The position numbers were made by a program, and so were the translations under genes. Below the pieces are notes generated by a model that was given only the letters and a program-made list of their open reading frames with translations, did not search any database and was not told the origin of the DNA. 36,926 nucleotides of DNA, from the IMG/VR virus record IMGVR_UViG_3300037847_001424, positions 1 through 36,926 of that record. The stretch is one strand, 5' to 3'. Source of the stretch: a virus. Every line of letters starts with the position of its first letter. Within the stretch, counting starts at the first letter, position 1. This document shows positions 12,910 through 35,744 of this stretch, in pieces.

Positions 12910-13170
12910 TTATTCTTTTTCTTCTTCTGGGTCAAGTCCTGCTACAAAATGTCCTTCATTGTATTCAATCTTGTTAGCAGATAATTCCCATTCTTCTCCG
13001 TTCCAAAAGTAAGCTTTACCCTTAACGTTTGGTCCCACTCTTATCATTTGACTTTGGGAGTCTATGAAAACTACCCTCGTGCTGCCGCATCCGCTCAAGA
13101 AAACGCTCACGATCAGGACTGACAGGAGCATCTTTAGCTTTAACAGGTTTTTTAACTTCACGTATAACAT
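12910..13170 (-). CDS. Small phage lipoprotein, possible Rz1-like o-spanin
   Basis: This encodes 86 residues. A basic N-terminus (residues 1-13) is followed by a hydrophobic segment and a lipobox, FLSGC, with the lipid-attachment Cys at 28, so it should be exported and acylated. The mature part carries the motif KGKAYFWNGEEWELS and an acidic tail. Its first 149 bases lie inside the preceding gene in another frame, as Rz1 lies inside Rz in many phages. The mature part is not Pro-rich like classical Rz1, so the spanin role is an inference from topology and position. An alternative start at Met14 (13131) would lose the positive n-region. No strong Shine-Dalgarno motif precedes either start. Confidence 0.7.
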   Translation of the reverse strand: MLYVKLKNLLKLKMLLSVLIVSVFLSGCGSTRVVFIDSQSQMIRVGPNVKGKAYFWNGEEWELSANKIEYNEGHFVAGLDPEEEKE

Positions 13171-24637: not shown

Positions 24638-27049
24638 TTAACTGAAGAAGTACAAGCTATCAAGTACATCTTCTATTTCTAAATCACCAAGTTTGAAGTC
24701 GCTTGGTAATTCATTTGAAAAGACTTTTAGTGACTCTTTAAAATCTGTCAAGAGGTTTCTTTGAAATATTTTTACAAAGACATATCGGAGGGTATCGGAT
24801 AACTGCTGACACTTGGTTGAGTGTGTTCCGTAGCTATCATGTACCATGCTCAGACTATCAAGTTTAAATCGTTTACATTCTATTGCAGTAAGGTGTACAG
24901 CAGCAGCATCAATAGCATGAACGAAGTTAGGACTGATGCCGTTTGTCTGTCTGTTCTTGTCAAGGTTGGGAGTGTCTTCTTTGTATGATATACCCACACT
25001 ACACTCAGTCAGTACAGTTCTAACCATGTGACTCTTGCCTCCTCTGTAGTGTTGCTTAACAGGTAAACCAGATGGACTCATCCACTCAGCGTGTTGGTTA
25101 ACTTCGTTTAGTTTCCTTACACATTTCTGTAGCCACTTCATTACCTGATCAGGTTTCTTGAGTATCTCATTCATGGATTCCCACACGATGTTACTCAGGT
25201 ATTGTGAAGCTAGGAATCTTTCTGTTGGAAATGGATCAGCTACATTCTCTTTGATTACCTTGTCATTGTACCATTCATCTATGTAAGCACGGCAACTGTA
25301 TCTTGTACCTCCATATGGTTTAACCATGACAGGTCGCTTGCAAGTCTTGCGATCAATGCCGAAGTCAAGCCAAGCTTTTGCAATGGGATCATTCTTTTGT
25401 TCTAACTTTTCTTTTACTCTGTTAGCTACATATCCATATAAATCTTCTGGTTTGTCAGTCGGTATTACGTTAGTAGCTTTTGCTCCTTCTTTATCTTTAG
25501 CTAGTAAACTTAATATCTGAATACCATTGTTTGATGCATCCATCTGGCAGGGTAGGTAGGTCTTGTATCCTCTTCCCCCTGCATCCATTAGTCCTCCCCA
25601 CTCAAAGCAGAAGGCAAGGAACTGCCAAGGATCATCCGCATCAGTCCACCAGACATTTGCATATGGGTCTTTGTAGACTTGGTATATCTCATTCTTGTTT
25701 TCGTTTACCCAATCTACTCTATGAGCCAGCGTTAGCTTATCCACTCCCCAGCAGTTTGCTCCATGTATTGCCAACCATTTTGCATCGTCAGCATTCCAGA
25801 TTGTTTCTGATTTAGAAAATAGAAGTAAGCTTTTACCCAAGTCTGTTCCTTGTGGAGTCAGGTAGTGTGGTATGGGATAGACTCTCCCTCTGAAATCTAA
25901 TTGTGATGGGAAGTATATACTAGGCTCATCCTTAAATTTCCTTGCAAGAGTAAGAGTCTTTACTACCTGCAATCGTTGACTCTGTAAGGATAGGTTCCTG
26001 TCATGTATCCTTGCTGCCTGTCTCTTCCAATCTTTCTTCTCTTCATCGTCACCATTCTCTGGATACTTCGGTATCGGGTAGTCCTCACGTTGAGGCATAT
26101 CACCTACCAGTATACTATCGTTCCAGAATGAATCCATCACATCAAGCACTCGTTTGTTTACCTTGAATGGAGTCTGCTGTATATGATTCAGACCTTCGAC
26201 CACATCCTTCATCTTCTCAAAGTCAAGTGATCTGAGGTAGTCCATGTCGTAGGTCTTCACGATGCTCTGAGGAGGTAGTCTCTGGTTTGTTCCTGTTGTA
26301 TATCCACCTCGCCACACTCCCTCCCAATCATTTGGTTTCTCCACCATCGGCATCCACATGGGAGTAAGGAGTTCTGAGCTTTCGTTGTAGTCGTTTATCC
26401 ACGTAAATAATTCCTCAGTAGGTTGTACGTAGTACTTGGTCTTACATCCTTCCGAAGCTCTTGCGAACTTGATCAAGTGGGTAGAGTTCCTAATCATTTC
26501 TAAGAACCAGCTTCCCATCAGAACCTTCGTCTTCCTACACCAGTTGGTCCATGCTTTGATGTTACCCTTCTCCACCTCACCATGCTCATGTCTAAGGTAG
26601 GTCTGCCAGTTCCTCTTGTACCCATGACCTGCTGACCTGTTACGTTTGACATCCCGATCAGCGTGTCTGAATACCTCTGGATAGTTGTCCTTCATCCATT
26701 GATACCGACACTCATCTTGGATCAGGTTGGAGATAGCAACAGCAGCTTTGAGCATGGTCTTCCTACTGCTGATAGAATCCAGAACAGACTTGAGTGCTAT
26801 GTAGGTTAACGTATCTATTGAATAGTCCCAGATGTTAGGCATCCAAGCAGGTACGGATTGACGATGCTTCTTATGGTAGTCAACACTACGTTTAACATCA
26901 TCGATCAACCTTGGTACAGTAGCTCTTAAAAGTCTTGCACCATAGGGAGCATCTGTTTCTTGTGACCTCTCTTTAGCTGACTGTACTTTACCTCGGTATC
27001 TAGCGATACCTCCCTCTACCATCTCACGATTCAGATCGTCTTGCCTCAT
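24638..27049 (-). CDS. Single-subunit phage RNA polymerase (T7 gp1-like)
   Basis: This encodes 803 residues (T7 has 883). The catalytic set is complete. CQMDASNNGI holds Asp504 (T7 Asp537); KRPVMVKPYGG holds Lys571 and Tyr579 (T7 Lys631, Tyr639); and MVHDSYG holds Asp738 (T7 Asp812). QLDFRGRVYPIP is the family motif near 383-394. The C-terminus ends in aromatic residues (FFS), comparable to the T7 FAFA foot. The N-terminal part is shorter than in T7. GAGGG lies about seven bases before the ATG. It drives middle and late transcription; no T7-consensus promoter was found, so its specificity is probably different. Confidence 0.97.
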   Translation of the reverse strand: MRQDDLNREMVEGGIARYRGKVQSAKERSQETDAPYGARLLRATVPRLIDDVKRSVDYHKKHRQSVPAWMPNIWDYSIDTLTYIALKSVLDSISSRKTMLKAAVAISNLIQDECRYQWMKDNYPEVFRHADRDVKRNRSAGHGYKRNWQTYLRHEHGEVEKGNIKAWTNWCRKTKVLMGSWFLEMIRNSTHLIKFARASEGCKTKYYVQPTEELFTWINDYNESSELLTPMWMPMVEKPNDWEGVWRGGYTTGTNQRLPPQSIVKTYDMDYLRSLDFEKMKDVVEGLNHIQQTPFKVNKRVLDVMDSFWNDSILVGDMPQREDYPIPKYPENGDDEEKKDWKRQAARIHDRNLSLQSQRLQVVKTLTLARKFKDEPSIYFPSQLDFRGRVYPIPHYLTPQGTDLGKSLLLFSKSETIWNADDAKWLAIHGANCWGVDKLTLAHRVDWVNENKNEIYQVYKDPYANVWWTDADDPWQFLAFCFEWGGLMDAGGRGYKTYLPCQMDASNNGIQILSLLAKDKEGAKATNVIPTDKPEDLYGYVANRVKEKLEQKNDPIAKAWLDFGIDRKTCKRPVMVKPYGGTRYSCRAYIDEWYNDKVIKENVADPFPTERFLASQYLSNIVWESMNEILKKPDQVMKWLQKCVRKLNEVNQHAEWMSPSGLPVKQHYRGGKSHMVRTVLTECSVGISYKEDTPNLDKNRQTNGISPNFVHAIDAAAVHLTAIECKRFKLDSLSMVHDSYGTHSTKCQQLSDTLRYVFVKIFQRNLLTDFKESLKVFSNELPSDFKLGDLEIEDVLDSLYFFS

Positions 27050-27604: not shown

Positions 27605-27804
27605 GACCCCAAAACGTGTGGATTGGCATACGATTTTTTCTTTCCAGCTCGCAACCTTTGTTTATATCTTTCTGGGTTTGTCTCTTTATGGTGCTTACCA
27701 GACCAGAAGTAGCTGTATCCTTCGTCAACATACTTCTTAGTTTCGATACACCATTTTAGTGAGTACCCTATGTCTTCACCTTGTTTTACTAAATCGTTTG
27801 GCAT
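27598..27804 (-). CDS. Small protein of unknown function
   Basis: This encodes 68 residues with a basic C-terminal half. The N-terminal region has SLKWCIETKKYVDEGYSYFW and then GKHHKETNPERYKQRLRAGK, so it could bind nucleic acid or zinc (Cys19, two His near 38, Cys68), but no family was recognised. It starts 29 bases inside a 42-codon ORF and ends in the nuclease gene start, in the typical overlapping style of the early operon. Confidence 0.6.
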   Translation of the reverse strand: MPNDLVKQGEDIGYSLKWCIETKKYVDEGYSYFWSGKHHKETNPERYKQRLRAGKKKSYANPHVLGSC

Positions 27805-27904
27805 TTTGTATAGCTCTCCTTAATTGTTTCTTTGCTTCTGGTGTTGGAATACTCTCAAGTTCCTTCTCCAGTTGCAGGATTAGTTGTTTTATTTCTTCTT
27901 TCAT
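27776..27904 (-). CDS. 42-residue helical, Lys-rich early protein
   Basis: The ORF runs from ATG 27904 and reads MKEEIKQLILQLEKELESIP, then a Lys/Arg-rich second helix. It is a strongly amphipathic helix. It begins by an ATGA overlap with the stop of the preceding 25-codon membrane peptide and ends 29 bases inside the next gene, so it closes an otherwise empty gap. The coupling and coding-like composition support it, although the ribosome binding site is weak. Confidence 0.5.
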   Translation of the reverse strand: MKEEIKQLILQLEKELESIPTPEAKKQLRRAIQNAKRFSKTR

Positions 27905-27978
27905 CTTGTTAAGTAGGCAACGGACATCAGCGTTAGGAAACTGATCATTGCCAATGCGTATATTGTTGTGATTTCCAT
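27901..27978 (-). CDS. 25-residue membrane micropeptide
   Basis: A short ORF starts MEITTIYALAMISFLTLMSV and ends with AYLTR, so nearly all of it is one hydrophobic segment with a basic end. It begins 13 bases after the stop of the zinc-ribbon gene and its TGA overlaps the ATG of the next small ORF (ATGA). It resembles in size and character two other micro-ORFs in this early region. The Shine-Dalgarno sequence is poor. Confidence 0.45.
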   Translation of the reverse strand: MEITTIYALAMISFLTLMSVAYLTR

Positions 27979-27991
27979 AGAACTTGGTACG

Positions 27992-28207
27992 TTAGAAAGC
28001 ATCATAGGTTTTGGTTTGTGGTTGGTAAACTTTAATAATCTTTTCAACAGTTATAAAACGACTGAAGCAGACAGGACACTTACGCATCCTGCCCACTTCA
28101 CCATCGTTTAGATCACGGACACAAGGATGACTCCGCTCAACGAACGAAGCATCCCTGCTATCCATAACCTTCGTCCTTGCGTTACACTTTGGACAATTCA
28201 CAACCAA
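27992..28207 (-). CDS. NrdR-type zinc-ribbon protein, stand-alone
   Basis: This encodes about 71 residues with two Cys pairs: CPKC, then TKVMDSRDAS, and CPVC followed by FSRFITVEKI. This pattern is very close to the N-terminal zinc ribbon of NrdR, the repressor of bacterial ribonucleotide reductase genes (CPFC, VIDSR, CxxC, RFTTYE). The ATP-cone domain of NrdR is missing. The frame begins at TTG; a GTG at 28201 gives MNCPKC and is equally possible. The gene follows the DUF932-like stop without a gap. A role in host transcription control is inferred. Confidence 0.75.
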   Translation of the reverse strand: MVVNCPKCNARTKVMDSRDASFVERSHPCVRDLNDGEVGRMRKCPVCFSRFITVEKIIKVYQPQTKTYDAF

Positions 28208-29071
28208 TTATGAATAAGATTCAATGATCTTGCTGAAGCTTACATCTTGTGGTTCAACTTCTGCATATCCCAAGTAAGAGGAGTAATTGTCCTCAATATG
28301 AGACTCAAAGGCGTTGTTAATATGCCTTGATCGGATTGCCTTTTGAGGATTTGAATCCGACTTGAGCAGTTCGGTGTAGGCATTATGTGCTGCCCATATA
28401 GTGTTGGCTGGGAACTCCTCATGTGGAGGCTCTTGGGTAAGCTTTACCAACTCCTCAAATTTATCTTTCGGAAGGACTGCCTCTTCGATTCTTGAGTTGA
28501 TATCGTACACCATAGAAGGTGCTTCATATCTTGTCACAGGTTGGCAAGCTTGTAGCATCTGGATAAACTTCTCAAGTTCAGCGAACTCCTCAAGGATATC
28601 TTGGAACTTCCAGAAGACAGATTTGTATAGGTCTTCCCCTATTTGCTTAGTGTGTTTTTTGGAAAACGGCTTAGTGTCTCCCTTGAATACCCCATTGGAG
28701 CAAACCATTAAGACAAGAGCAACGATGTACTGGAGGGAGAACCTCTGATCGTTGGAGTTGCGAATTCCAATCAAGCGTCGATGTCCTCCACTACCCTCAA
28801 GGGTTAGTTTCATGAGGCATTGGTCTACAACTTTCTTTCCACTCAAGCTATGCTGTACCCATATTTCCTCATTCGAGGTTTTTAAATTGTACATACCAAG
28901 CGTCCTTTGAATGACTTGGTATGCTTCGATATGAGGCAAACAATGATGCCGTGGTCCTTGCGGATCAGGCGTTACCATGTTAGCTAGTTGTTCGGTGTCC
29001 ACTTGTTGCCAAGGGACTCTGATCTTACGAGGTTTTGCGGTTGTTACTGATGTATGTGTTACTTCTGTCAT
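28208..29071 (-). CDS. DUF932-like protein
   Basis: This 287-residue protein resembles plasmid/phage DUF932 proteins, in particular the segment GIRNSNDQRFSLQYIVALVL followed by MVCSNGVFKGD, where family members have a 'SxDGS...CxN' pattern. The C-terminal half is helical. Family members are common on plasmids and phages but have no firmly known function. The ATG follows AAGAAAGAAAATACA, a leader almost identical to the one before Met53 of the primase-helicase. A 24-codon ORF lies immediately upstream. Confidence 0.65.
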   Translation of the reverse strand: MTEVTHTSVTTAKPRKIRVPWQQVDTEQLANMVTPDPQGPRHHCLPHIEAYQVIQRTLGMYNLKTSNEEIWVQHSLSGKKVVDQCLMKLTLEGSGGHRRLIGIRNSNDQRFSLQYIVALVLMVCSNGVFKGDTKPFSKKHTKQIGEDLYKSVFWKFQDILEEFAELEKFIQMLQACQPVTRYEAPSMVYDINSRIEEAVLPKDKFEELVKLTQEPPHEEFPANTIWAAHNAYTELLKSDSNPQKAIRSRHINNAFESHIEDNYSSYLGYAEVEPQDVSFSKIIESYS

Positions 29072-29084
29072 TGTATTTTCTTTC

Positions 29085-29159
29085 TTAGTTTTGGTTGTGT
29101 AGATAAAGAGAGATACCGATGGTAACTCCCCAGTAAAATATAATTCCTAGTTCTATCAT
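29085..29159 (-). CDS. 24-residue membrane micropeptide
   Basis: The ORF starts MIELGIIFYWGVTIGISLYL and ends HNQN. It has a strong Shine-Dalgarno sequence (AAGGAG seven bases before ATG) located in the last codons of the preceding gene, so translation is likely. Residues 4-20 are a membrane-span-length hydrophobic stretch. The WGVTIGISLYL segment resembles WGIVGITLTLL in the 20-residue ORF at 31076-31138. The role is unknown; small antiholin, membrane-disrupting or host-targeting peptides are possible. Confidence 0.6.
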   Translation of the reverse strand: MIELGIIFYWGVTIGISLYLHNQN

Positions 29160-29160
29160 T

Positions 29161-29781
29161 TTAATGCTCCTTGTATGTGACTGTTTCTCCCTTTGTCCAA
29201 CACTTTCTACAGTCTCCGCAACTGTTACCTTGATCAGGTGCTGGACAGTTGTATTCAGTTGTACTTACAGCACTCGTCTCAACCATTAACTTCTCTGCTA
29301 GGGAAGCTGGTCCATCGACGTTTACCTTATGTGCTGACAATCTTATTATTAAGTTATCGGGAATGATTCCCTTGTACTCTTGTACTGTTCTGTACTCTCT
29401 TGTTGGTAACCAAAATTTGATATGTGGTAGGTTACGTGCTATCTGGCATATCTTTTCTAAGTGTTCAACGTTCTGTAAGTCTCCGCTATCGTGCCATCTA
29501 AAGTATCCTGACTTCTCCTTTTTGTTTATGAGTTCTGTCATATCTTCTACCCAAGTTGGGCTATGCATAACAGCGTTGAATCTTTTCTCCATTGCTGCTT
29601 GCACATTCGGGAATACATATCTTCCCTTCAATGCATAGCAGTTAGAACATACAGTTCCTTTCCTCTTTGCTAGAATGCTACCTATCTTGCAATGAATAGC
29701 AGGTATCGAGTACCCATGACAAGGCATTTTTGAAGGATTGGAAAGAGTTCCTGTTCTCTCTTGTATTTGTTTTATTGTCAT
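29161..29781 (-). CDS. GP88-like Cys-rich protein
   Basis: This encodes 206 residues. The N-terminal SKMPCHGYSIPAIHC followed by GTVCSNCYALKGRY gives Cys21, Cys31, Cys45 and Cys48. Near the C-terminus another cluster, CPAPDQGNSCGDCRKCW, has a C-x8-C-x2-C-x2-C spacing suited to zinc or an iron-sulfur cluster. The middle has YFRWHDSGDLQNVEHLEKI. This arrangement resembles the 'gene product 88' family of mycobacteriophages and other phages, of unknown function. It begins by an ATGA overlap with the previous gene. Confidence 0.7.
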   Translation of the reverse strand: MTIKQIQERTGTLSNPSKMPCHGYSIPAIHCKIGSILAKRKGTVCSNCYALKGRYVFPNVQAAMEKRFNAVMHSPTWVEDMTELINKKEKSGYFRWHDSGDLQNVEHLEKICQIARNLPHIKFWLPTREYRTVQEYKGIIPDNLIIRLSAHKVNVDGPASLAEKLMVETSAVSTTEYNCPAPDQGNSCGDCRKCWTKGETVTYKEH

Positions 29782-30161
29782 AATCTTTTAGCTGAATTGT
29801 ACATTTCCATTGCTTGATCAATGCCAGATATATCATTGTACTTTACAATATATCCCATCTTTTTATTGGGGTTCCACTCCTTGGGTGAGGGCCAGATAAT
29901 AATGTGGCAAGGGACTGGTTCCGCAAGTTGAGGTAAGAGCATCTGCCCTATATATACACCAGTTCCACAAGGAGGATCATCTACCCATGTAGGGATATCA
30001 AACCCCATTAGTCTTTCAGCCTCTCCATGTACGTATAGTGTCACATCTGGATTATTGGGCCTAGGTTTCCCTAGTGATTTGTAGAATGGTCGATGGTTAG
30101 TTCCCTGACTGAGGATGTCCCCGTGATTTTGGTCTGAGAACCTGTATTTAGTTGGTTTCAT
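29778..30161 (-). CDS. Early protein of unknown function
   Basis: This encodes 127 residues, Pro-rich (KSLGKPRPNNPDVTLYVHG, PPCGTGVYIGQ, WPSPKEWNPNKK), with two Cys. No known domain is recognised. It is joined to the GP88-like gene by ATGA and starts 14 bases inside the preceding small gene, so the three form one coupled run. The constant pairing with a GP88-like gene could mean they work together; this is inference. Confidence 0.65.
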   Translation of the reverse strand: MKPTKYRFSDQNHGDILSQGTNHRPFYKSLGKPRPNNPDVTLYVHGEAERLMGFDIPTWVDDPPCGTGVYIGQMLLPQLAEPVPCHIIIWPSPKEWNPNKKMGYIVKYNDISGIDQAMEMYNSAKRL

Positions 30162-30321
30162 TTATCTTTTTCTCTTTCCTTTTTAGTATTATTTGTGCAT
30201 TAGTTATTCCTTTTTCTATACCGAAGGTATCGGTTAACCTCTTGAATGTACTCCAACTAATTGTGTTGGGCGGTATCTCTTCCTTCCATTGACGATATCT
30301 TTCTTTAGCTTTAGCGTCCAT
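30148..30321 (-). CDS. Small basic early protein of unknown function
   Basis: The start at ATG 30321 gives 57 residues beginning MDAKAKERYRQWKEEIPPNT and ending in a Lys-rich tail. It is favoured by GAAGGG about nine bases upstream and by an overlap of only 11 bases with the preceding gene. A longer frame from 30387 has no good ribosome binding site. The phrase SWSTFKRLTDTFGIEKGI suggests a helix-turn-helix-like region, but no family was recognised. Confidence 0.55.
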   Translation of the reverse strand: MDAKAKERYRQWKEEIPPNTISWSTFKRLTDTFGIEKGITNAQIILKRKEKKINETN

Positions 30322-30499
30322 ATAAACGATCCCTTCTTTTCCATGCTTTGTTTCCTCTACCTCTATACTCAGAAGTAAACTTGTCATTATAAATTGCAGA
30401 CTCTATGAGAGACGCAACTTCCATCTTCCCCTCTTTCCTATACCTGAGCATAAGATTGAGCCGCCAGAGGTAGTCATTGTATTCTATTTGTTTAGTCAT
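30311..30499 (-). CDS. Small early protein of unknown function
   Basis: This encodes 62 residues, highly charged (Arg/Lys/Glu/Tyr), beginning MTKQIEYNDYLWRLNLMLRY and ending NKAWKRRDRLYGR. It starts by an ATGA overlap with the previous gene and ends 11 bases inside the next. The frame is real by coupling; the function is unknown. A nucleic-acid- or host-protein-binding peptide is possible from the charge. Confidence 0.6.
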   Translation of the reverse strand: MTKQIEYNDYLWRLNLMLRYRKEGKMEVASLIESAIYNDKFTSEYRGRGNKAWKRRDRLYGR

Positions 30500-30837
30500 A
30501 TTTGGTTTCTCGCTTCCATTTTCTTCTTTACCAGTTTATCTTCCCATTCCTTTCCATACGCTTGGCAACGTATCATTACTGAAGATATTTCTCCTTTAGT
30601 TTGGAATGCTAGTACGTCATCGTATGCATTCAAAGGAACATAATCATTGTTGGGATTGAACAACGCACACTCAAACGTCTCTTTGAATGCTTCTCCGTAT
30701 GCCGTTCCTCTAGGATACTTTAAAGAGGTTACGACGGATATTTCATATCCATTTGCAAACTTTTGCCTAGCACTCAAGGTTTCCCCATCGTGTATGATCT
30801 TAAAGTTTAGATCGTTATAGTCGTATACCTTACTCAT
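30496..30837 (-). CDS. Early protein of unknown function
   Basis: The start at ATG 30837 (113 residues, MSKVYDYNDLNFKIIHDG) is preferred. GGAGG lies about nine bases upstream and the ATG overlaps the previous stop (ATGA). An upstream in-frame start at 30885 would add 16 Arg-rich residues within the preceding gene. The middle has RGTAYGEAFKETFECALFNP and DDVLAFQTKGEISSVM, so it is a mixed alpha/beta protein. No family was recognised. Confidence 0.65.
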   Translation of the reverse strand: MSKVYDYNDLNFKIIHDGETLSARQKFANGYEISVVTSLKYPRGTAYGEAFKETFECALFNPNNDYVPLNAYDDVLAFQTKGEISSVMIRCQAYGKEWEDKLVKKKMEARNQI

Positions 30838-31049
30838 CCTTTGAATCCTCCTTCTGCTTTGTAGTAAACGTCTTCGTCTGTCCAATCGTCCTTGTATATA
30901 GCTCCTATACTTTCAAGGTATTTTATTTCTGCTTTGTTATGATTAACAGTCCATGAATGTATCCACAAACCATGCTCTGAGTTGCGAATGGTATTTAGGA
31001 TGTCTTTTAGTAATGGGATGTGTTTTAGTAGTGTTTCGTCTTTTTCCAT
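30834..31049 (-). CDS. First gene of the main early operon, unknown function
   Basis: This encodes 71 residues, beginning MEKDETLLKHIPLLKDILNT and containing HGLWIHSWTVNHNKAEIKYL. It is acidic to neutral and probably helical, followed by a short beta part. AAAAGAAA precedes the ATG. It opens the run of coupled genes after the leader with the G-U-containing hairpin (31079-31116). No family was recognised. Confidence 0.6.
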   Translation of the reverse strand: MEKDETLLKHIPLLKDILNTIRNSEHGLWIHSWTVNHNKAEIKYLESIGAIYKDDWTDEDVYYKAEGGFKG

Positions 31050-31075
31050 TTTCTTTTATTAGTTAGGTGAAATTC

Positions 31076-31138
31076 TTAGGGACATAGCAGGGTCAATGTT
31101 ATTCCTACTATGCCCCAAGTTTGTATATCAACAGGCAT
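31076..31138 (-). CDS. Possible 20-residue membrane micropeptide
   Basis: The ORF MPVDIQTWGIVGITLTLLCP ends at TAA 27 bases before the next gene. The hydrophobic segment TWGIVGITLTLL resembles that of the 24-residue peptide at 29085-29159. AGG lies about ten bases upstream, so the ribosome binding site is modest. The same bases form the hairpin called at 31079-31116, so either the RNA structure or the peptide (or both) may be what is selected. Confidence 0.35.
   Translation of the reverse strand: MPVDIQTWGIVGITLTLLCP
31079..31116 (-). ncRNA. 13-bp hairpin in the early leader RNA
   Basis: In the minus-strand RNA, GGGGCAUAGUAGG (31116-31104) pairs at all 13 positions with CCUGCUAUGUCCC (31091-31079), with two G-U pairs and a 12-nt loop. 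In the plus-strand sense these two positions would be A-C mismatches, so the structure is only complete in the sense transcript. No U-tract follows. Possible roles are an RNase III processing site like those between T7 early genes, or protection of the 5' end of the early mRNA. Confidence 0.55.
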
Positions 31139-31220
31139 CTTATCACTACCTATTGATAGCGGTTGATCCGAACTAAAAAGAATCCTTTTCTATACGTGCT
31201 ATTGTATAGGGTAATATTAT

Positions 31221-31352
31221 TTATAGACAGGAAGAGATATCGTTATATACATCTATCGGTCTTGTGTACACAACCTTGATCGACACGCTCATTACCAGAG
31301 TTGCTTCTGTCTCATATATATGATCGAAACGAATTGAACGTTTGTCCTTCAT
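31221..31352 (-). CDS. Possible 43-codon early ORF
   Basis: The frame from ATG 31352 reads MKDKRSIRFDHIYETEATLV and continues with MSVSIKVVYTRPIDVYNDIS, ending SCL. The composition looks protein-like (charged start, alternating beta pattern), but there is no Shine-Dalgarno sequence; TATATAAAA lies about ten bases upstream. It may be a real small early gene or chance. Confidence 0.3.
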   Translation of the reverse strand: MKDKRSIRFDHIYETEATLVMSVSIKVVYTRPIDVYNDISSCL

Positions 31353-31832
31353 ATACGTTTTATATAGCGACACCCAGATGCATCTCCCGTATTCGCATTA
31401 TATGCCCGAAGGTTTTATTTCAGTTGACAGGGTGTCGCTTTGTACAAATCTCCCTCACGCTCACTTGCCAGCAAGCTTTGAAAAATTTGAACACAACTTT
31501 GCATACAGGTATACCCCTGCGCCTTGCTCCAGTTGTCGGAGGTTCGCAATATGACCCATGCCACAAGATCATTCAGACCGCATCCAACGTACTTTCAGAT
31601 CGTTACTCCTAGGCTACCTAGCGTCAACCAAGTCCCTGCTTTCTCTTTCTTACTATTTCCTAATGGGATTTCCGACTAGCGGATATGTGGATATCTTATG
31701 CTCTCTTCAAGCCCACTTGGATTTTTGGTCTGGCTATGTCAATAAAGTGTCTTCTTATCAGCTTAACGTTTGTCGCTTGTAAAGTCTCGCCCCTCCCTAC
31801 TTTAGTTCGGTGAATAACGGGGCTGAGATAAG
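31353..31832 (-). promoter_or_regulatory. Intergenic early region without a convincing gene
   Basis: This 480-nt stretch between the coiled-coil gene and the early small ORFs is visibly less AT-rich in its middle (about 31500-31640) than the genes around it. It contains a perfect minus-strand TATAAT at 31402-31397 with only a poor -35 match upstream. It also holds a 74-nt element closed by a 10-bp inverted repeat (31366-31439), a small CTAGG/CCTAG hairpin (31609-31621) and a GTTGACG sequence near 31620. A 32-codon ORF begins at the ATG antiparallel to 31557; it lacks a ribosome binding site. Host-type early promoters are expected here or upstream of 32238. Confidence 0.5.
31366..31439 (-). 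ncRNA. Candidate structured RNA closed by a 10-bp stem
   Basis: AGCGACACCC at one end pairs perfectly with GGGTGTCGCT at the other, enclosing 54 nt. Inside, on the minus strand, are CCTTCGGG (a UUCG-type loop), GCATATAATGC (4-bp stem) and GATGCATC, so a branched fold is possible. The size is tRNA-like but no T-loop motif or anticodon arm fits. It also contains the TATAAT box, so it may simply be a promoter region with dyad symmetry. The half-site AGCGACA occurs again near 31778. Confidence 0.35.
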
Positions 31833-32237
31833 TTAGATCTTTGCAAAGGTTTCGTTTACCTGTTGCTTTTTCCTGTTGTAGCTTCCCTCCACATTGGAGA
31901 ACCTCTTGCTCTTACGGAGTTCCGCACGTTGACCTTCTGGTAGGTTCGAGTAGCAAATCTCAATAAGTTGGTTGCAATGTTTCTTTTGCGTTGGGGTCAA
32001 GTTTGATTCGTCAAGTTCCCTATCAGTCTCTTCGAAGTTCAGAAAGCATTCCCCGTAGGTTGTAACAACAATATTAGTCCCATTAAGGAAAATCTGCATA
32101 TCTCCAAGCTTGAATTTGAGAGTCTTAATCGTCTTTTCGCAATCTTCAACTTGCTTGACGAGGTTTTTATTCTCACCTTGCAAGGTTGCAATAAATGCGA
32201 GAAGTTCAGACTTTGACATATTTTTAACGTTTTTCAT
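31833..32237 (-). CDS. Coiled-coil early protein of unknown function
   Basis: This encodes 134 residues. The N-terminal half (MSKSELLAFIATLQGENKNL and the following KQVEDCEKTIKTLKFKL) is a good coiled coil. The C-terminal half has LTPTQKKHCNQLIEICYSNL followed by a basic tail. It stands alone between two long intergenic regions and is the first gene after the probable left end of the genome, where T7-type phages encode host-takeover proteins. ATAAGAAAG precedes ATG 32237; Met7 (32219) is an alternative. No family was recognised. Confidence 0.65.
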   Translation of the reverse strand: MKNVKNMSKSELLAFIATLQGENKNLVKQVEDCEKTIKTLKFKLGDMQIFLNGTNIVVTTYGECFLNFEETDRELDESNLTPTQKKHCNQLIEICYSNLPEGQRAELRKSKRFSNVEGSYNRKKQQVNETFAKI

Positions 32238-32791
32238 TTTATTACTTTCTTATCTTTTGGGTTAGTGAATTGTGCAAGTTGCACGTTTCGAAAAATTTGA
32301 AAGCGATTTAAAAAACGTTAAGCTGATTGATTCCTTTCCAGTTGAAGTTAAAATTGAATAATCGAAACTTGCTGGAAAAGATTAAATCCGTCAACAATTA
32401 TTTTCAACTTTCTTCAAATTTGAGTCTATTAGTGGGCTGAGAGCTGAAAGTTTTTTCAAATCCCAGTAATAGATTCAAAGAGGTTTCAACGTAGGACCAA
32501 AAAACGATAGCAAACTCAATCGCATTGAATACATTTACTAGCATTTTCAAATCCCTACGAGAAAAGCCTTAAGCGAATAAGCCTAGCAAGATCATTCGGA
32601 AAAGATTTGGGTAAGCTCTCGACGAATTCGACTTTTTTGGGGACAGACCCTATTTCTTCCCTTAGATATTTCTTTAATGACAGGCCCACGCCTAACTTTC
32701 CAATAGCATAATAAAGTTACACGTGCGAAAGGGGGAAAATGTCGTCCTAGCTATATACGATCACCCCTTCAGAAATTTTTACCAAAACTTT
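32238..32791. promoter_or_regulatory. Long AT-rich intergenic region, probable genome-end/early promoter zone
   Basis: This 554-nt region separates the last late gene from the first early gene, which is where T7-type genomes have their terminal repeat and host promoters. It contains a 12-bp direct repeat TTTTCAAATCCC (32453-32464 and 32544-32555) and an odd-spaced dyad GTGCAAGTTGCAC (32272-32284) 35 bases before the first early gene. It also has TTTCCAG/CTGGAAA half-sites and TTGACG- and TTGAAA-type boxes on the minus strand without convincing -10 partners. The packaged ends cannot be placed from sequence alone. Confidence 0.5.
32404..32544 (-). CDS. Possible 46-codon ORF in the early intergenic region
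   Basis: The frame from ATG 32544 has GTAGGGA about seven bases upstream as a possible ribosome binding site. It encodes MLVNVFNAIEFAIVFWSYVE followed by TSLNLLLGFEKTF and a polar end, so it could be a membrane peptide. One copy of the 12-bp direct repeat supplies the ribosome-binding region and the other lies inside the frame. It may be chance. Confidence 0.3.
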   Translation of the reverse strand: MLVNVFNAIEFAIVFWSYVETSLNLLLGFEKTFSSQPTNRLKFEES

Positions 32792-32845
32792 TCAGTAAAG
32801 CTTTTTCTTTTTCTTTGTCGGTCTTTTGTAAGGCTTAGTCTTCAT
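32792..32845 (-). CDS. 17-codon Lys-rich ORF (MKTKPYKRPTKKKKKLY)
   Basis: It starts by an ATGA overlap with the stop of the upstream basic protein and encodes nine Lys/Arg plus aromatic residues in 17 positions. The composition continues that of the two preceding basic proteins, and the coupled start is the standard style of this genome, so translation is plausible. Its product might bind nucleic acid in the virion or during packaging. Its small size makes this uncertain. Confidence 0.4.
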   Translation of the reverse strand: MKTKPYKRPTKKKKKLY

Positions 32846-35245: not shown

Positions 35246-35478
35246 TGAGTTTGTCTAACAGCCTCTGGATCAGGGTCTTCAAATGGCAGTAGATCAGCAA
35301 GCTTTCCTAGTGGTGTACCTTGTTCTGTTAGACTGATAATATCGTTATCCTTCAGTAACTGCCTAGCACCATTTAGGATTGCAGCATTATACTCCCCAGT
35401 ATCGTTCATTTCACTTATAGCAGACGAATAAGTCTCCGTAACTTGAACTTGTAGTTTTTCTAGTTGTTCTCGTTTCAT
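35242..35478 (-). CDS. Small terminase subunit (T7 gp18-like)
   Basis: This 78-residue protein begins MKREQLEKLQVQVTETYSSA and is helical with an acidic C-terminus (LLPFEDPDPEAVRQ). It lies immediately before the large terminase, as T7 gp18 (89 residues) does, and recognises the DNA for packaging. ATG 35478 is used, one codon after an in-frame TTG, because GAGGA lies nine bases before it. It overlaps the preceding stop by one base and the next ATG as ATGA. Confidence 0.85.
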   Translation of the reverse strand: MKREQLEKLQVQVTETYSSAISEMNDTGEYNAAILNGARQLLKDNDIISLTEQGTPLGKLADLLPFEDPDPEAVRQTQ

Positions 35479-35744
35479 CAATTGTTATTCCTCATTATTA
35501 GTTCTAAAAGCCTATCAAGCTTATCGTTCATAGCTTCAAGCTTTTGTTCTAGACCATGCATACGTTTTTCAACGGATAGGTCACGTTCGTGTTGAGCAGC
35601 TAATTCGACTTCAATCTTTGTCAAACGCTTTTCATCGCTATCTAGTCGGTCGCTAAACTTCTTACCGATCCAACCGAATACCCCTAGAACAACAGCAAGA
35701 ATACTGTCAAGGAAGTGTGAGATTTGTTCTGCCATTGGTTCCAT
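35478..35744 (-). CDS. Holin-like membrane/coiled-coil protein (T7 gp17.5 position)
   Basis: This encodes 88 residues. A hydrophobic segment (about residues 11-28, LDSILAVVLGVFGWIGKKF) is followed by a long charged coiled coil (DSDEKRLTKIEVELAAQHER and onward) ending in Asn residues. It lies between the tail fibre and small terminase genes, exactly where T7 has the holin gp17.5. Holins with one N-terminal span and a coiled-coil tail exist, but a spanin-type role is also possible. It overlaps the fibre stop by one base. Confidence 0.7.
   Translation of the reverse strand: MEPMAEQISHFLDSILAVVLGVFGWIGKKFSDRLDSDEKRLTKIEVELAAQHERDLSVEKRMHGLEQKLEAMNDKLDRLLELIMRNNN

Follow-up and report, generated by a model that had tools for sequence, protein, structure and literature searches.

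Two conserved small genes for predicted single-span membrane peptides in the early operon of a T7-like podovirus

We analysed a virus record of 36,926 bp (IMG/VR IMGVR_UViG_3300037847_001424, taken at full length and called the window), which belongs to a T7-like podovirus. Three very short hydrophobic open reading frames (ORFs) pointed out in a sequence-only reading of this DNA are all present, on the minus strand, and are named here A (MIELGIIFYWGVTIGISLYLHNQN), B (MLSNVPSSMEITTIYALAMISFLTLMSVAYLTR) and C (MPVDIQTWGIVGITLTLLCP). A and B are conserved in frame and position in two relatives and are constrained at the protein level. Judged from these sequences, they are genuine conserved small genes of a common but usually overlooked kind. 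The fuller proposal, that A and B are unrelated, genuinely encoded single-span inner-membrane microproteins made early in infection, is in our judgement evenly balanced, with translation, membrane insertion, topology and target all predicted from sequence. The outcome is two concrete candidate microproteins of a T7-like phage, both encoded in its early region, and a corrected picture of C.

The minus strand of the window carries T7-like genes for RNA polymerase, primase/helicase, DNA polymerase, capsid, connector, tail, internal virion proteins and terminase. Since the small ORFs lie just upstream of the T7-type RNA polymerase gene, their region is early, as the sequence-only reading had proposed. 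GenBank phages gave no DNA-level match to the peptide-bearing half of the window, except for a 39-bp scrap. Searches of IMG/VR with the polymerase, DUF932, Zn-ribbon and 68-aa genes found few relatives, and the early block is present in only two of them, L080 and L082, whose contigs extend into the region. The comparison set is thus the window, L080 and L082, all metagenomic contigs of uncultured phages. Both relatives have the gene orders GP88-A-DUF932 and Zn-ribbon-B followed by a gene of 43-45 aa. A and B keep these positions although the upstream early genes are wholly replaced. The window genes 5' of GP88 (29778-32237) have no counterpart in L080 or L082, which places A and B in the conserved half of the region and C in the replaced half.

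Table 1 Coordinates of the features in the window and in related loci
Feature	Position	Strand	Evidence or remark
Peptide A, 24 aa, predicted single-span	29085..29159	-	Orthologues at the same position (L080:6933-7013, 63% identity; L082:5911-5985, 67%) and protein-level constraint
AAGGAG ribosome-binding site of A	29167..29172	-	Sequence; 7 nt before ATG
Peptide B, 33 aa, predicted single-span, corrected start	27901..28002	-	Orthologues at the same position (L080:8049-8153, L082:7030-7134) and protein-level constraint
42-aa gene directly 3' of B	27776..27904	-	Orthologues L080:8157-8294, L082:7139-7270
ORF C, 20 aa	31076..31138	-	Probably not a gene
RNA hairpin, 16 pairs, GGGGCATAGTAGG ... CCCTGCTATGTCCC	31075..31119	-	-24.1 kcal/mol, z -4.0
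GP88 family gene directly 5' of A	29161..29781	-	PF17338, E 7.9e-33
DUF932 gene directly 3' of A	28208..29071	-	PF06067; orthologues 42-45% identical
NrdR-type Zn-ribbon gene, 71 aa, between A and B	27992..28207	-	Pfam PF22811, E 3.5e-7; L080/L082 orthologues 63-67% identical
Hairpin 1 in Zn-ribbon gene, 27 consensus pairs	28110..28170	-	Fold and three-phage consensus
Hairpin 2 in Zn-ribbon gene, 19 consensus pairs, GUAA loop	28061..28102	-	Fold and three-phage consensus
Tandem hairpins in relatives	L080:7879-7990, L082:6859-6972		
T7-type RNA polymerase	24638..27049	-	phrog_414, E 2.6e-230
Holin-like gene between tail-fibre and terminase genes	35478-35744		T7 gene 17.5 position
Lipoprotein	12910-13170		Weak Rz-like spanin match
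Unrelated-clade loci with a GP88 follower	L002-L008, L011, L012, L014-L021, L023, L024, L059		

Prokaryote genome contigs searched with the RNA polymerase core gave no match, sigma-70 promoter and terminator scans gave counts not above those in shuffled sequence, and tRNA and Rfam searches matched no family. Two long gene-free gaps (31050-31832 and 32238-32841) lie where the early and terminase genes meet, and are possibly the genome ends with early promoters; L080 and L082 likewise have a long gap at this junction. A relative (L076:9-1618) has a pair of PDDEXK nuclease genes on either side of a 243-aa gene, with 73% and 50% identity to the only such gene of the window.

Hydrophobicity alone is no proof of a gene, because membrane-like ORFs arise accidentally on both strands: 8 of 97 ATG-initiated ORFs of 18-40 aa on the plus strand and 7 of 68 on the minus strand are membrane-like. 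When the intergenic gaps were shuffled, none of 9000 trials with the gap of A yielded a membrane-like ORF; the rate was 0.5% for that of B and 2.4% for the 783-bp gap of C. By hydropathy only, all six A and B sequences contain one span of 17-22 uncharged residues, with a 17-residue hydrophobicity of 1.8-2.4. C reaches only 1.47, below the threshold passed by A and B, so the description of all three ORFs as almost purely membrane-length stretches holds for A and B and is weak for C.

The coding evidence comes from the pattern of substitution. For each pair of genomes the observed substitutions were placed at random, leaving out the first codons that overlap neighbouring genes, and a stop then appeared in roughly half of these randomised frames or more. 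The real BLOSUM score of A was equalled in at most 6 of 20,000 randomisations (P <= 0.0003 for each pair) and that of B in none of 20,000 for each pair. In every pair, both peptides are thus far more alike in amino acids than the nucleotide changes would predict, and since randomised substitutions never or nearly never reach the real scores, A and B are protein-coding and constrained. RNA structure does not explain this conservation because neither mRNA stretch is unusually structured (z -0.6 for A and -0.4 for B). The sequence-only reading had made its case hinge on related genomes keeping the frames at the same positions, and A and B are so kept in both L080 and L082.

These data bear on two further explanations. 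All three ORFs could be accidental open frames in AT-rich sequence; that such ORFs arise on both strands speaks for it, and it is probably true of C, but the positional orthologues and codon-level constraint of A and B make it very improbable for the set. Alternatively, the short frames might act through translation itself, by coupling or spacing genes, with peptides that have no role. A and B do fill short gaps between genes, and the start of B overlaps the upstream gene. However, a coupling frame needs no conserved GxxxG or AYLTR and would not yield amino-acid similarity so far above the null, and we find this explanation hard to credit.

A has the strong AAGGAG site reported in the sequence-only reading, which overlaps the last codons of the GP88 gene. 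In the MAFFT alignment the motif WG(V/I)xxGIS, which contains GxxxG, is invariant in all three A sequences. No relative of A was found in GenBank phages by tblastn up to E 10.

B had been given as 25 aa from a start at 27978. The relatives support the ATG at 28002 instead, and B therefore probably starts there, overlapping the end of the Zn-ribbon gene. In both relatives GAAAGGAT precedes the start; the window's B lacks the AAAGGA site present there. TIY and the C-terminal AYLTR are conserved in all three B sequences (MAFFT alignment). The ATGA overlap with the following small gene, also part of the sequence-only reading, exists in the window and is absent from the relatives. In GenBank, tblastn up to E 10 returned only matches with E >= 3, from Mycobacterium phages. 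A, B, two of their orthologues and the peptide of Limnohabitans phage DC31 (see below) were also compared with PHROG, and none had a match even at E 1, although the test is weak for queries this short.

C has no counterpart in L080 or L082 and no GenBank relative by tblastn up to E 10. Most of it is covered by an RNA hairpin (Table 1), which no shuffled sequence matched in stability. C is probably a chance reading of this hairpin, and with no relatives, a weak span and the overlapping hairpin we rejected it as a gene, with some room for error. The pattern that A and C were said to share is borderline: shuffled versions of C reach its score against A in 1% of cases (P 0.01), the alignment needs a gap, and C lacks the GxxxG spacing kept by all three A orthologues. 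A and B have no sequence similarity to each other, and the only orthologues of each are its counterparts at the same position. The idea of a single three-member family was therefore dropped, given the mismatch of A and B and the borderline likeness of C to A.

We propose that A and B would be translated from a polycistronic mRNA of the early region. Ribosomes would reach A through its own strong binding site, at the end of GP88, and would begin B at the start that overlaps the end of the Zn-ribbon gene. Their hydrophobicity suggests that, shortly after infection, both would enter the inner membrane of the host, with the C-terminal arginine of B on the inside. Through its GxxxG face, A may pair with a second copy of A or with a membrane protein of the host or the phage, and such pairing could alter a membrane-bound host process or superinfection.

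Pinholins are typically short single-span peptides with small-residue motifs, and A or B could likewise be part of lysis, as a pinholin, an antiholin or a lysis-timing peptide. A study of T7 deleted for its holin gene points to additional genes with holin activity (PMC8365609), which would leave room for such a part. Against this, A and B lie in the early operon, and the window has a holin-like gene at the T7 gene 17.5 position. Because this gene and the lipoprotein with a weak spanin match sit elsewhere, a lysis role is less likely, and we regard it as improbable. No sequence match of A or B to a described holin or pinholin family was found in PHROG, again a weak test for short queries.

A further explanation is that A and B serve the products of adjacent operon genes as membrane anchors or partners: A would tether or regulate GP88 (or DUF932), and B would tether the Zn-ribbon or 42-aa protein. 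The window's GP88 clearly belongs to its family (114.6 bits against a Pfam curated cut-off of 24.4, which the GP88 proteins of L080 and L082 also pass), and A stays between GP88 and DUF932 despite GP88 subfamilies just 17-18% alike between the window and the two relatives. We scanned downstream of every GP88 copy fetched. In an unrelated clade, with GP88 54-57% identical to that of the window, a hydrophobic ORF of 16-24 aa begins 1-11 nt after GP88 at 20 of 20 loci; under the same strict criterion only 1 of 257 non-GP88 genes at these loci has such a follower. The clade followers comprise 19 distinct peptides, and T occupies 64% of their second codon positions against 32% and 28% elsewhere, a signature of hydrophobic coding frames. 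Clustered at 60% identity, 4 of 30 GP88 clusters and 7 of 334 others have a membrane-peptide follower (Fisher P 0.008).

Other observations oppose the partnership. The enrichment test was post hoc and disappears with coarser clustering (0 of 9 clusters at 45% identity), 17 other GenBank GP88 phages have no membrane peptide after GP88, and the clade's peptides have no evident sequence similarity to A. Membrane-peptide followers are also not rare, since a looser criterion finds one behind 27 of 710 genes classed as non-GP88, among them the GP88 gene of phage DC31, which the filter for GP88 had failed to catch. Pairing with GP88 is thus weakened as a general rule by the 17 phages and by the dependence on the cut-off, and the link is a lead, not a result. 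Overall, we consider the neighbour partnership unlikely.

DC31, a GenBank phage, has an unannotated 39-aa membrane ORF 12 nt after GP88 (L108:1412-1531), and this ORF and the one after GP88 at L028 are longer than those of the clade. A more distant phage (L089:1-1799) has GP88 near DUF932, upstream of an RNA polymerase gene, with an ORF of about 90 codons and no membrane peptide between them. Phages of the clade (L012, L014, L018, L021, L024, L059 and others) carry one more small membrane ORF, 31-38 aa long (for example MEIFLTCVWAYFGLVFVQLIYALIRSIIERR), which comes after a different gene on the minus strand near 5.6 kb. Unannotated membrane ORFs of 16-45 aa thus closely follow genes in several phages, and gene callers therefore miss a class of phage products.

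The AlphaFold model of GP88 (pLDDT 89) resembles radical-SAM enzymes weakly. Such enzymes, namely QueE, viperin, lipoyl synthase, PFL activase, SuiB and EpeE, make up most of the top-ranked chains, with Z at most 6.5 in a second-look alignment against the tool's bar of 8, and Foldseek gave no match at E <= 0.001. No sequence relative was found among solved structures. The canonical radical-SAM CX3CX2C cluster motif is absent; the conserved cysteines are C31, C45 and C48 (C-x13-C-x2-C) and C179, C188, C191 and C194. It is conceivable, if a long shot, that GP88 is a divergent radical-SAM-like iron-sulphur enzyme with A as its dedicated partner or substrate, modifying or tethered by the membrane peptide of about 20 residues encoded directly after it, in a two-gene module that recurs with unrelated peptides in another clade.

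There is good support for selected RNA structure within the coding sequence of the Zn-ribbon gene. Two tandem hairpins are kept in all three phages; no other 66-nt stretch of L080 or L082 is as stable, and in the window they take ranks 1 and 4 on the minus strand. In each of the three phages the gene has a lower fold energy than synonymous-codon nulls (z -6.6 to -9.9), and in the window it ranks first among 272 coding tiles. Pairing survives substitutions in nearly all of the 46 consensus pairs, with two broken in one sequence each, and two pairs of hairpin 1 changed on both sides with pairing kept, three sequences being few for covariation. Consensus pairing and synonymous nulls together indicate selection on the RNA. 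The synonymous nulls reject the hairpins as a by-product of Zn-ribbon coding, which is also opposed by two Geobacillus-phage Zn ribbons that fold otherwise. Hairpin 2 was rejected as a terminator, the T-run being absent from both relatives. When 408 kb of loci were searched with a covariance model, no clear further copy emerged. Further very stable hairpins lie inside coding genes of the minus strand, at 23954-23889 (-35.3 kcal/mol) and 18926-18861 (-29.8).

As a first guess, by analogy with T7, the double hairpin may be an RNase III processing site, and the consensus stems of 27 and 19 pairs are long and double-stranded, as such a site requires. T7 has 10 RNase III processing sites, six of which share an intergenic region with a promoter (PMC9135205). 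The likeness is one of long hairpins in a T7-like transcript, whereas the two candidate sites described here lie within a protein-coding gene. The pair is thus a candidate element for RNA processing or regulation that sits inside a gene for a protein, and together with the GP88 lead it matters more than the peptides themselves.

A 2022 survey by Fremin et al. (Cell Rep 39:110984) reportedly predicted very short, mostly unannotated, conserved ORFs across phage genomes. A and B are likewise very short and conserved, and have no PHROG family match. The gene before A is a clear member of the GP88 family (PF17338), and most of the family's genes that we examined are not followed by a membrane peptide. 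We know of no sequence relation between A or B and DinQ of Escherichia coli. DinQ is a single-transmembrane peptide of the inner membrane that acts on the membrane (PMC3567139). A and B are similarly predicted to be single-span inner-membrane peptides; unlike them, DinQ is a chromosomal toxic peptide with antisense small RNAs (PMC3567139). Gp11 of the Staphylococcus aureus phage PhiNM1 is a small early membrane protein that blocks cell division (PMC11237401). A and B resemble it as small predicted membrane proteins from phage early genes, and differ in host and sequence and in that the division block of Gp11 has been demonstrated (PMC11237401). Thus, since small early or single-span membrane-active peptides such as DinQ and Gp11 have already been described, A and B would belong to a known kind.
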